Positions 6,013 to 10,714 of a stretch of 21,120 bases of DNA are shown piece by piece (the first letter of the stretch is position 1; each line of letters opens with the position of its first letter). A program made the position numbers and the translations under genes. The notes below the pieces were generated by a model that made no database searches, was not told the origin of the DNA, and saw nothing but the letters and a program-made list of their open reading frames with translations. The stretch comes from a virus. The DNA lies in IMG/VR virus record IMGVR_UViG_3300045930_000185, positions 1-21,120 of that record, one strand, 5' to 3'.

Positions 6013-7818
6013 TCATGCGGCGCCGACGGTGCGCGCGAGGTCCGAGACCTCGTCCTCGAGCGCGCGCCGTACCCGCACCTCGAGGTCGTCGGCGAGCTCG
6101 GCGGAGCTCTGGCCGGGTTGCTGGGTGATCTGGAAAACCGGAGCGAAGCGCACGCTCACGGAAGAGCCCCCGGGTGCCATGTCGCCGGCACGCGGACGAT
6201 CCGCGAAACTCGAAGCGACAGGCCCAACCTGGGCCTGGGCGCGTGACGTTACCGCGTTGTCGTTTGCTGCGAGCGTCACCGACCCGCGCGCGAGCCTGTC
6301 GATCGCACTGCCGACATCGATCGACTCGATGCCTCGCCTCAGTCCGAGCGAGATGAGGGTGCCCTTTTCCTCCATCGCCTTCGAAGGGCTGCCGAAGTTG
6401 AAGATCTTGCCAAGCTTGCCCATGATCGCCGCGCCGACGCGTCCCGCGACATCGGAGACCTTGGTGATACCCGCCTCGAGGCCGCTCACGAGGCCGTCGA
6501 TGATCCGCGGTCCCCACGTGGCTGCCGCGTCGATGACCTTGGAGGCCGCACTCCGAACGACATCGAAGGGCTTTTGGATGGCGTCCCCCAGGCGAAACAG
6601 CGCCGGGAGGATCTCGAGAACCAGCGTGGTGAGCTTGCCGAGCATCCCGACGATCATGCCGAGACGCTTCCCCCAACTCTCCGCCGCCTTTGCCACCTCG
6701 GGTTTGGCCAGGGCCGAGAGGAATCGGTCGAGCGATTCCCCCATCTTCGGGAGATCCTTGCTGAGCTCGCCGCCGAAGCCCTTGAAGAAGCGCTGGGCGA
6801 TCGGCGTCACCTTTTCGATGAGCTTGCCGATGAACTCGAACGCCTGCCCGAGACCGGTGGCAAGCCTGTCGATCGCCTGCTGCCCCTCTGGGCTCGTGAG
6901 GAATGCATCGAGCTTCGCGGCGATGGGCCCGATAGCTCGCTCGATTTGCGGGACCATCTGCTCACCGAGGGAGACCATGAGGTTCTGCCCTCGTGCCTTC
7001 AGGCGGCCGGCCATGCCCGTGAGCGTCGTGTCGGCGAAGCGTTTCCCTGCCTCTCCCAACACCTTCGAACCGGTCTTCTCTTGGACCGCTTGGAGGATGG
7101 CGGAGATCGCCGTGTCGGCGTCGATCTTCCCGCCCTCTTGCAGCTTCAGCACTTCGGCGTTGCTCGAGACGCCGAGCAGCTTCTGCATCTTCTGACGGAT
7201 GAGGTCGATCGAAACCCCAGCGTTCGCGAGCTGGTTCAGCTCGTCGCCCTGCAGGATTCCCGTCCCCTTGATCTGCGTTATCGCACGAATGGCGCCGGCG
7301 ACATCCTCGCCACCGGCACCGATGACGCGGAGGTCGGCACCCATTCGGATGATGTCGCTCGCGAGTTCGGGGTTGAACTGCGCCGCGAGAAGCTTCTTGA
7401 AGTTCCCCGTCGTGTCCTGGACGTCCATCCCGAACTCGACGGCGAGGTTTCGCGCGCGCTCGAATAGTTTCGCCCCGGACGCGCCGTGCTTCGCGAGCGC
7501 GTTGAACGCGAGCTCTGAGTTTTCAGCGAACGTCGTGAATTCGATGACGGTTGCGATCGCGCCCTTGCCGAGGTCCACGATCGCGCCGAGCGCGCGCGCG
7601 GCGCCGTCCGCAATGAGGCTGCCAATGGCCACGCCCTTCACCCCGAGACCGCCGAGCGACCTTCCGGTGCTAGTGCTCTGAGTCTCGAGCTTCTTGAATC
7701 CCTCGGTCGCAGGACGGACCTGCTTTCGCGTGAGCTTGTCGATCCCCGAACCGATGCGACTCAGCGGTCGACTCATCTTGTCGATGAGCTCGAGTACGAA
7801 ACGAGAGCGGTTAGCCAA
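6013..7818 (-). CDS. Tail tape measure protein (601 aa), TTG start
   Basis: The protein that sets tail length and is ejected first. It begins 'MANRSRFVLELIDKMSRPLS', the typical 'F.L..IDKMS.PL' opening of Mu-like tape measures. A tape-measure core follows with 'AFNALAKHGASGAKLF' and 'ITQIKGTGILQGDELNQLAN' (about residues 110-215), then Ala/Leu-rich helices and hydrophobic segments (about 395-455). The C-terminus has 'NFGSPSKAMEEKG' (474-486), a common tape measure ending motif, and a final helix. It starts with TTG at 7818, with GAGG 7 bases upstream and an 8-base overlap with the gpG gene; the first ATG (Met15) would cut a conserved part. By the usual ~0.15 nm per residue rule the tail would be near 90 nm. 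Confidence 0.92.
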   Translation of the reverse strand: MANRSRFVLELIDKMSRPLSRIGSGIDKLTRKQVRPATEGFKKLETQSTSTGRSLGGLGVKGVAIGSLIADGAARALGAIVDLGKGAIATVIEFTTFAENSELAFNALAKHGASGAKLFERARNLAVEFGMDVQDTTGNFKKLLAAQFNPELASDIIRMGADLRVIGAGGEDVAGAIRAITQIKGTGILQGDELNQLANAGVSIDLIRQKMQKLLGVSSNAEVLKLQEGGKIDADTAISAILQAVQEKTGSKVLGEAGKRFADTTLTGMAGRLKARGQNLMVSLGEQMVPQIERAIGPIAAKLDAFLTSPEGQQAIDRLATGLGQAFEFIGKLIEKVTPIAQRFFKGFGGELSKDLPKMGESLDRFLSALAKPEVAKAAESWGKRLGMIVGMLGKLTTLVLEILPALFRLGDAIQKPFDVVRSAASKVIDAAATWGPRIIDGLVSGLEAGITKVSDVAGRVGAAIMGKLGKIFNFGSPSKAMEEKGTLISLGLRRGIESIDVGSAIDRLARGSVTLAANDNAVTSRAQAQVGPVASSFADRPRAGDMAPGGSSVSVRFAPVFQITQQPGQSSAELADDLEVRVRRALEDEVSDLARTVGAA

Positions 7819-8230
7819 AGGTCTGCCTCAAAATCTCTTGAACGGATTCGTTGATGCGGTCGCCCCACGCCCTCGGCAGGACGCCCTCGGGAACCATCTT
7901 TCGCGCGACCATTCGCTTCGTGCCCTGCTGATGAAAGTCAGCGTAATCGACCGCCGGCGCGATCGTCACCGAGGTGCGCCCCATCTTCTCGACGTGCCAA
8001 CCACGGCGTAGCCTCGCCGTCTTTCCGACGAGGACCTGCCTGCCATCGGGGCGCTTCTTCCGCTCCCAACGCCGCCCGGCCGGATCCGTCTCGCTGCGAA
8101 ACCCATCCTGAACGAGGCCGAGCAATTCTTCGGCGACGCTCTTCGTGATGCGCCGCATGAGCACGGCGTCGCGGCCCACCTTGCGGCGGAGCTCGCGCAG
8201 TGCTCGGAGATCGGCCTTCAGTCGAATCAT
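7811..8230 (-). CDS. Phage virion morphogenesis / tail completion protein (Mu gpG-like)
   Basis: A 139-residue protein with a basic N-terminal helical part, then 'FRSETDPAGRRWERKKRPDG' (Asp-Pro-x-Gly-x-x-Trp at about 49-55), 'VGKTARLRRGW' (68-78) and 'VDYADFHQQG' (94-103). These are the hallmarks of the Mu gpG-like / phage_tail_S virion morphogenesis family. In Mu gene G follows F in the head cluster; here it lies between the chaperone and the tape measure, so it may act on the tail. ATG at 8230 overlaps the frameshifted chaperone's stop (ATGA). Confidence 0.87.
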   Translation of the reverse strand: MIRLKADLRALRELRRKVGRDAVLMRRITKSVAEELLGLVQDGFRSETDPAGRRWERKKRPDGRQVLVGKTARLRRGWHVEKMGRTSVTIAPAVDYADFHQQGTKRMVARKMVPEGVLPRAWGDRINESVQEILRQTFG

Positions 8231-8750
8231 CGGCGTCTACGTCCCGGTCTCTTCTTCGTGGCCCGCCTGAGCGCCTTGTCGTACGCGACGACCCAGCTCT
8301 TCAGGTAGCGGACATTGTCGTAGAATTCGGCGGTGTGCAGCGCGCCGACGTGCGCTTCCTCGGTCTCGGGCCTGTGCAAATAAGCGAAAAGCGCCCGCGC
8401 GGTTCCGTACAGGTACCGTCGCGAGCGCTGCCAGGCCTCTATCCTTTTTTTGCGATGATTTCGACTTCAGAGCCCGCGAGCTTTTCGAGCTCGAGCGCGA
8501 TCGCTGGCGGCGCAGCCGGGTACCGGTTGAATGCCTGCTCGAGCACGTCTGGGCCCGGCTCGACGAGCGCCTTCAGGCAGAGCTGCCGACTCCAAAGGAC
8601 GCCCTTCGAGCGGTCCTTCTGCATCTGCGCCTGAAACTCTTCGTAGTCGGTCTGATTCGGGCACTTGAACGCGAACTCTTTGCCAGAGAGCTTCGCGTAG
8701 ATGAGATCGCCGTGCTGGGCCTCGAGGCCCTTCTTCGTATCGTTGTCCAC
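8227..8750 (-). CDS. Tail assembly chaperone, long form produced by -1 frameshift
   Basis: Slipping back one base on the A7 run at 8445-8451 joins the first 102 residues to a 72-residue extension beginning RIEAWQRSRRYLYGTARALF and ending in 'RRATKKRPGRRRR'. The extended frame runs exactly to a TGA at 8227-8229, overlapping the next gene's ATG at 8230 (ATGA). The resulting 174-residue protein would be the GT-type chaperone that links the short chaperone to the tape measure. The extension has no start of its own. Known biology: most long-tailed phages frameshift here; Mu itself is reported to use a -2 shift. Here -1 is the visible option. Confidence 0.85.
8439..8750 (-). CDS. Tail assembly chaperone, short (zero-frame) form
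   Basis: A 103-residue, helical, charged protein ('QTDYEEFQAQMQKDRSKGV', 'LCLKALVEPGPDVLEQAFNR', 'AIALELEKLAGSEVEIIAKKG') of the gpG/gp41 type, which protects the tape measure protein during tail assembly. The start is GTG at 8750, behind an excellent Shine-Dalgarno (AGGGAGGTGA). The frame ends in Ala-Lys-Lys-Gly-stop, where the two Lys codons lie on an A7 run: a programmed frameshift site. It lies between the tube and the gpG-like and tape measure genes, the fixed place for such chaperones. Confidence 0.88.
   Translation of the reverse strand: MDNDTKKGLEAQHGDLIYAKLSGKEFAFKCPNQTDYEEFQAQMQKDRSKGVLWSRQLCLKALVEPGPDVLEQAFNRYPAAPPAIALELEKLAGSEVEIIAKKG
8445..8451 (-). promoter_or_regulatory. Ribosomal -1 frameshift slippery site (A AAA AAA)
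   Basis: Reads GC-AAAAAAA-GG on the minus strand, in the X XXY YYZ register relative to the zero frame (GCA AAA AAA GGA TAG). A stop follows two codons later in the zero frame. About 15 bases downstream is a possible stem: AGCGC (8425-8429) with GCGCT (8390-8394), and CGCG (8420-8423) with CGCG (8398-8401), with small bulges. The spacer is longer than usual, so the stem is uncertain; the heptamer is not. Confidence 0.85.
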
Positions 8751-8753
8751 CGT

Positions 8754-8802: not shown

Positions 8803-9267
8803 TCAAATTCGCTGGTTCCTGAACGGCTTCTTTCCGTCGAATGTGCGGTACAGGAACGAGATGGGGAACGACGTCTGGACGCCCTCGGGCCCGTCGCCCG
8901 GGTCTTCGTCCACGTCGAGAATGCGACACGAGACGAGCTCGCGCGTGATGCCTGGCTTGTTCGGCGCGATGTAGCGCACGACGATGTTGAAGATCATGTC
9001 GGAGAAACCATCTCCGAGGTGATTGATTAGGGCCTGCGCTTCCTCGACGTCGTCCGTCTCGAGCGAGCCCTCGCCGACTTGCATCTTGCCGCGTGTGCGC
9101 CCGAGCACCTCGGGCACCGAGGCCGTTTCCCCGATGATGCCCTCCTCGATGGGCTGCGAGTGCGTGACCTTGAAGGTCGTGAAGAGGCGGCGTCCGATGC
9201 GGATCTCGGTGCCGGATTGGCTGTACTTGAAGCCCCGCGTGTCGGGGTAGAGGGGATCAGTAGTCAT
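8803..9267 (-). CDS. Tail tube protein (Mu gpM-like)
   Basis: A 154-residue protein that should form the inner tube within the sheath. It is mostly beta with 'IRIGRRLFTTFKVTHSQPIE' near the start, 'TRGKMQVGEGSLETDDVEEA' in the middle and 'QTSFPISFLYRTFDGKKP' near the end. Length and placement directly after the sheath and before the chaperone are typical of contractile-tail tubes. A GAGGAG-like ribosome binding site lies 3 bases before the ATG. Confidence 0.87.
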   Translation of the reverse strand: MTTDPLYPDTRGFKYSQSGTEIRIGRRLFTTFKVTHSQPIEEGIIGETASVPEVLGRTRGKMQVGEGSLETDDVEEAQALINHLGDGFSDMIFNIVVRYIAPNKPGITRELVSCRILDVDEDPGDGPEGVQTSFPISFLYRTFDGKKPFRNQRI

Positions 9268-9274
9268 TGACTCC

Positions 9275-10714
9275 TCACGTCTGGACCGGCTGCGCGAGCA
9301 CGAAGCTGAAGGTCGTCGCGATGTTGTCCACGTAGGCGAGCGAAGTGATCGCCACTTGCGACAGCAGGAGACCCGTGGAGAGCATGTTGTTCGTGAGGTC
9401 GACCGTGTAGCTCACGGCAGTCACGTGACCCTGCTTTCCGCCGGCGTTCTTCGGCTGGCGCAGCAAAGCCCGTAGGCCTTCGTTCACATCGGTCTCGAGA
9501 TCGGCGGCGTCGCCTGGGTCGATGCGTCCCGTGCCATCGACGAGCGTGAAGAGCCCTTCGCCGATGAACTCCGTCTGCTTGCCGTAGACGAAGTTGCAGG
9601 CCGTATCCATCACGCGACGGTGTGGCCAGTAGCGGAAGTCGCTGCCCGACTGCGACTTCAGGTGTCCCTGGGTCGCGAAGAAGCCGACCTTGTTCGGCCA
9701 GGTCCGGAGCGTCGAAACCTTGATGTCGTTGAGACCGGCGTCTTGCAGGTAGCCGTCGTGCGTGATCGACTTCGCGCCAGGGATGGGCCCGCCGCGCACG
9801 CGCTTGAGATCCGTCGAGATGAGGCTCCGCGCCGCGAGGTAAGCGAACGCGCTGTTCACGCGACGTTGCGGCATCGACCAACCGGGGAAGGGCTTCGCGC
9901 TCGGGCCGACCCACCCGCCGTAGGAGCCGAGCACGCGAACGCCGACCTGCGAGGTGAAGCTCGTGAGGACGTTGGCCGTCGTGTCGTCACCCACGTCGCA
10001 CATGCCAGCCTTGTGGCGGAAGTTCGTGGACGCGAGCGCGGCGAGCTGAGTCTGAAGGCCGGCGAATTGCGTCGCAGCGGCAGACGCCGTTGCGTGCTTG
10101 CCGGCCGCGTCGACGTAGTCCCAATCGAGACCCGGCGCGGCGGCAAGGGCGGCGAACGCGGTACCGAGGTTGGTCGCGTTCCACATCGGCGCTGTGCTCG
10201 TCCAGGAATGCGTGGTGCCGACGACGTGCGTGCCCGACACGAACGTCGCGGTGATTCCGGTGTTCGGGATGACGAACGAGCCGCCCGACGGAATGATGAT
10301 GGTTTCGGACCAGGTTTCCTGGTTGTCGAGCGTGTAGCGGAACTTCCCGACGCCGAGTGCGCCGCCTCCCACGATTTCGATCCGAGCCTGGTAGTCGTCG
10401 TTGGGCGTGCCCGAGACGGTGACATCGGGACCCGAAGGACCGGCCTCGGTCACCGTCGAGTTCGAGCCAGCGACCGAGCAGGTCGTCTTCATGAACCGCA
10501 CGGGTCCGCCGACGTTCGCCAGCACAAAGGCCGCGTCCTCGACGGCCGGCCCCTGTCCCTCGGTCGCCACGAGATCGGGAACCCGGCTGTAGGTCTTCAG
10601 GACGTTCTCGGAGCCGCCGGAGCTGTAGCCGAGGAACAACGGGATCGACGTCGCGGGTACGACGACATTCGTCCCGAATTCGTTGATCGTGAAGGCTTGT
10701 GCCGGAATGGGCAT
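9275..10714 (-). CDS. Contractile tail sheath protein with an inserted beta module
   Basis: The 479-residue sheath subunit, which contracts to drive the tube through the host envelope. The N-terminal strand 'MPIPAQAFTINEFGTNVVVP' and the C-terminal conserved part ('GGWVGPSAKPFPGWSMPQRR', 'SLISTDLKRVRGG', 'NKVGFFATQGH', 'WPHRRVMDTACN') fit Mu gpL-like sheaths. Residues about 92-175 carry an extra module ('VTVSGTPNDDYQARIEI', 'KFRYTLDNQETWS', 'TGITATFVSGT') similar to that in the capsid protein. It precedes the tube gene, as in all contractile tails. The start is ATG at 10714, three bases after the upstream stop. Confidence 0.92.
   Translation of the reverse strand: MPIPAQAFTINEFGTNVVVPATSIPLFLGYSSGGSENVLKTYSRVPDLVATEGQGPAVEDAAFVLANVGGPVRFMKTTCSVAGSNSTVTEAGPSGPDVTVSGTPNDDYQARIEIVGGGALGVGKFRYTLDNQETWSETIIIPSGGSFVIPNTGITATFVSGTHVVGTTHSWTSTAPMWNATNLGTAFAALAAAPGLDWDYVDAAGKHATASAAATQFAGLQTQLAALASTNFRHKAGMCDVGDDTTANVLTSFTSQVGVRVLGSYGGWVGPSAKPFPGWSMPQRRVNSAFAYLAARSLISTDLKRVRGGPIPGAKSITHDGYLQDAGLNDIKVSTLRTWPNKVGFFATQGHLKSQSGSDFRYWPHRRVMDTACNFVYGKQTEFIGEGLFTLVDGTGRIDPGDAADLETDVNEGLRALLRQPKNAGGKQGHVTAVSYTVDLTNNMLSTGLLLSQVAITSLAYVDNIATTFSFVLAQPVQT
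10190..10441 (-). other. Ig-like/beta module in the sheath protein
   Basis: Residues about 92-175 of the sheath. Pattern: GTPNDDY, a strand pair around 'FRYTLDNQETWSETIIIP', then 'NTGITATFVSGT', then 'HSWTS'. A module with the same order of landmarks is inserted in the capsid protein. The strand '...DNQETWS' parallels the bacterial Ig-like 'S.DGGxTWS' motif. Confidence 0.65.

Follow-up and report, generated by a model that had tools for sequence, protein, structure and literature searches.

The 21,120-bp sequence analyzed here (hereafter the window), a complete IMG/VR contig with a GC content of 65.7%, very probably encodes a tail-assembly chaperone of the lambda G/GT type whose synthesis would involve a programmed −1 frameshift on an A_AAA_AAA heptamer. 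The mechanism itself is already known, and the lambda frameshift has been reviewed (PMC5009743). What we add is a likely function for the Pfam family DUF6848 and a clade of Thermus/Meiothermus phages that carries a homologous extension in the +1 frame.

On the minus strand of the window, genes for portal, head morphogenesis, protease and capsid come first; next come a tail sheath gene of the DUF2586 family (9275–10714), a putative tail tube gene (8803–9267), a gene of 103 codons (8439–8750), a tail-completion/Neck1 gene (Phage_tail_S; 7811–8230) and the tape measure gene (TMP_3; 6013–7818). The head genes are Mu-like, and the sheath marks a contractile-tail phage. A family search with the putative tube gene gave no significant match; we assign it because it sits between the sheath and chaperone genes, where phage MMP7 has a gene annotated as XkdM. 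The 103-aa gene occupies the place of a chaperone, with sheath and putative tube upstream, the tape measure downstream and one tail-completion gene in between. Because a tblastn search of phage GenBank with the window's fusion protein gave no match, relatives were fetched through the sheath.

The chaperone gene begins with a GTG at 8750–8748 (−), preceded by GGGAGGTGA, and its 3′ end reads GCA AAA AAA GGA TAG, with the zero-frame stop at 8441–8439. An earlier note on this DNA had placed the feature at 8227–8751; its end at 8227 stands, whereas coding starts at 8750. As that note described, an A7 run (8451–8445) lies in the X_XXY_YYZ register, as A_AAA_AAA, one sense codon before the stop. A −1 slip at this point opens a frame that reads K-K-R-I-E-A-W and onward for 72 codons (8445–8227), ends at a TGA at 8229–8227 and would give a fusion product of 174 aa. 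The extension stop overlaps the start of the next gene (ATG, 8230–8228) as ATGA, again as described earlier.

Judged from its modeled structure, the zero-frame product is a phage tail-assembly chaperone. An AlphaFold model based on an alignment of 26 sequences has a mean pLDDT of 96, and its best match among solved structures is 3FGX (RBSTP2171; Z 12.9, 94 residues, 2.9 Å), followed by HK97 gp13 (2OB9, Z 5.6), YqbN (3KLU, Z 5.2) and 5IR0 (Z 4.7), with all remaining matches at or below 2.6. The three structures 3FGX, 2OB9 and 3KLU, which stand apart from unrelated matches, are named tail-assembly chaperones (PMC9603447); they have the fold of the zero-frame protein at a sequence identity of only 11–19%. 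A profile of chaperone relatives also finds 3FGX by sequence (E = 4.5e-16). Against Pfam DUF6848 (PF20941), the window protein scores 22.5 bits, below the curated cut-off of 27, although 23 of 29 aligned sequences match the family at E ≤ 0.01 (best 4e-19). We therefore regard it as a diverged relative of DUF6848 and not as a filed member. Since most of its aligned relatives match, DUF6848, which had no function in Pfam, is probably a chaperone family. In five loci (L014, L018, L036, L039 and L041) the chaperone domain is present in two tandem copies (domain E-values 4e-4 to 1e-16).

The slip site is conspicuous in its setting. No other A7 or T7 run occurs on either strand of the window, and in 43,232 codons from long ORFs of related loci, AAAAAA[AG] is found in register twice (4.6e-5 per codon) and GGGAAA[AG] three times (6.9e-5 per codon), a background near 1e-4 per codon. 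Because the run is the only one of its kind in a GC-rich contig and the in-frame background is this low, we do not take the site to be due to chance, which the earlier note had called unlikely. A canonical in-register heptamer is kept in 17 of the 20 non-redundant −1 loci with a recognized extension (window included), usually one codon ahead of the stop: A7 or A8 in 13, AAAAAAG in two (L016, L038) and GGGAAAA in two (L017, L080). It is absent from the other three (L012, L042 and L045). The slip site is thus conserved, and this despite a codon bias against AAA: the ratio of AAA to AAG among lysine codons in long ORFs is 31:154 in the window and 1:113 in the locus of Myxococcus phage Mx4.

The same protein would result if RNA polymerase, not the ribosome, slipped on the A7 run and added an A, so that the shift lay in the mRNA. 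A homopolymer of A is a substrate for such slippage, and at the protein level the two outcomes would be identical. The substituted sites make this improbable, however: GGGAAAA and AAAAAAG preserve tandem tRNA slippage while leaving only four or six As, and we therefore favor ribosomal slippage. The maintained X_XXY_YYZ register and the stable stems downstream also argue against the polymerase.

Behind the site lies real coding sequence for a conserved helical domain. When we searched the 427 frames of the window with an extension profile built without the window, its extension ranked first (E = 1.7e-14, or 6.6e-8 with L011 and L014 omitted too); the second-ranked frame had E > 0.2. Aligned relatives have in common a motif of roughly RRDL..AAR.LLA..RG.....A.GALL.AE, and the model of the extension (pLDDT 92) consists of three helices. 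Close pairs differ mainly at third codon positions of the extension, with 3, 1 and 16 changes at positions 1, 2 and 3 for L033/L035 and 15, 13 and 27 for L005/L024; the window and L011 (33, 30 and 34) are too diverged to inform. The 72-aa sequence matched no family in PHROGs or Pfam, and comparison with solved structures by sequence and fold gave no convincing match, which does not imply a new fold. The earlier note had named two observations that would count against its reading, an extension not conserved as the C-terminus of homologs and an A7 run varying freely between related phages; relatives do carry the extension as a conserved C-terminal part, and the heptamer counts above speak for constraint on the run.

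Could the extension instead be a gene of its own? The earlier note held that the −1 frame lacks a start codon. None is evident, but one TTG (8379) is in frame and could start a 50-aa protein, and public records (Mx4 p58 and others) list short separate ORFs at this place. We nevertheless think it very unlikely that two separate genes are present: no Shine-Dalgarno sequence is visible ahead of the TTG, part of the conserved domain lies upstream of it, and the conserved heptamer would be left unexplained. One long gene split by a single-base indel or a sequencing error is just as hard to credit, for although homopolymer runs are error-prone, two other IMG/VR contigs (L003 and L004) are identical to the window across the region, which makes an error in a single assembly unlikely, and diverged relatives break at the same place, some toward −1 and some toward +1.

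Downstream of the heptamer, a 40-nt stem at 8390–8429 (−), which the earlier note had suggested as a stimulator, folds with −27.9 kcal/mol (z = −4.88 against 200 dinucleotide shuffles), and a stem at the same offset in L011 has z = −4.96. Across the 19 loci with A-rich sites, mean z just past the site is −1.90, compared with −0.37 for randomly chosen positions within these loci (p = 2.2e-5, an optimistic value because the loci are related). No excess structure follows the slip site in the T-rich and +1 classes. Among four aligned stem sequences, three pairs have changed on both sides, which is suggestive only, as 132 of 500 shuffles score as high. The 15-nt spacer between heptamer and stem is longer than typical spacers. 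Given that distance, we consider stimulation of frameshifting by this stem plausible.

We propose that most ribosomes would end at the TAG and release the 103-aa chaperone, while a minority would slip −1 as two tRNA-Lys shift in tandem on A_AAA_AAA, probably with help from the downstream stem, to produce the 174-aa protein with its 72-residue helical domain. On the model of lambda G/GT, coating the tape measure would fall to the short product and recruiting tail-tube subunits to the long one. The gene, its frames and site, and their homology, fold and conservation are read from the data; from these we infer slippage, its rate and the role in this phage, as we do every statement about translation. 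Compared with lambda, the window phage is contractile-tailed, has an A7 slip site and a DUF6848-like chaperone, and carries a candidate stem. The tail-completion/Neck1 gene lies upstream of the sheath in relatives in which a homolog was found. Here it sits between extension and tape measure and begins within the ATGA overlap, so its translation may be coupled to ribosomes that have shifted frame. If such coupling operates, the frequency of the shift would also set expression of this gene.

How the window relates to phage Mu needs revision. Mu is known to use a −2 frameshift at the equivalent genes (PMC5009743, PMC2628397), and the earlier note had seen the −1 shift as a variation within a Mu-like operon. 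The position, the presumed purpose and the head genes are indeed like those of Mu. However, the extension lies in the −1 frame and not in the +1/−2 frame, and the tail is of the DUF2586-sheath family, whose members as a rule use −1. In Mx4, p57/p58 (OK085710) are homologous to the chaperone and its extension; the shift there is also −1, and the A8 run at the site contains A_AAA_AAA in register. Unlike the window, Mx4 has two codons instead of one before the stop, its tape measure gene comes directly next, and the pair is annotated as two hypothetical proteins; we found no mention of Mx4 together with frameshifting in the literature searched. The −1 frame after the chaperone is open in more remote relatives too (Bacillota, Spirochaetota and others), with T_TTT_TTN in nine when read by eye.

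The real departure within the DUF2586-sheath family is a Thermus/Meiothermus clade. In 13 loci of this type (L006, L007, L021, L023, L025–L029, L031, L034, L037 and L081), including phages Riverbug and MMP7 and their relatives, chaperone and extension are homologous to those of the window, but an invariant TTT C takes the place of A7, and the extension follows it in the +1 frame, not in −1. All 13 also carry a GA(A/G)GAG block ending 6 nt upstream of this site. The site fits a +1 slip of tRNA-Phe from UUU to UUC, and the Shine-Dalgarno-like block is reminiscent of prfB; it is also possible that these ribosomes would reach the extension by a −2 slip. On the sheath tree, the +1 class requires one change (support 89, quick search). 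We lean, if only slightly, toward the view that one homologous chaperone family changed its recoding direction and kept the extension, with −1 on A- or T-rich heptamers in most members and a single switch to +1 on UUU_C in Thermus/Meiothermus phages. Because different tailed phages are already known to use −1, −2 or +1 (PMC5009743), only a switch within one homologous pair would be new; we found no description of one in the mostly open-access literature searched.

These results support the presence of a recoded gene, one that is split or lost in automatic annotation, as the separate short ORFs of Mx4, MMP7 and Riverbug illustrate. The extension is filed as a short hypothetical protein at 9170–9358 in L005 (Mx4 p58), 9185–9334 in L006 and 9214–9306 in L007, with the frameshift unannotated. 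The relatives also form a natural series, one protein pair with different slip sites and two directions, that could be used to ask why the direction of recoding changes. Elsewhere in the window, two adjacent minus-strand genes (4294–3824 and 3827–3294) look alike, each starting with a LAAFIRWV stretch, and are possibly a duplicated baseplate gene.
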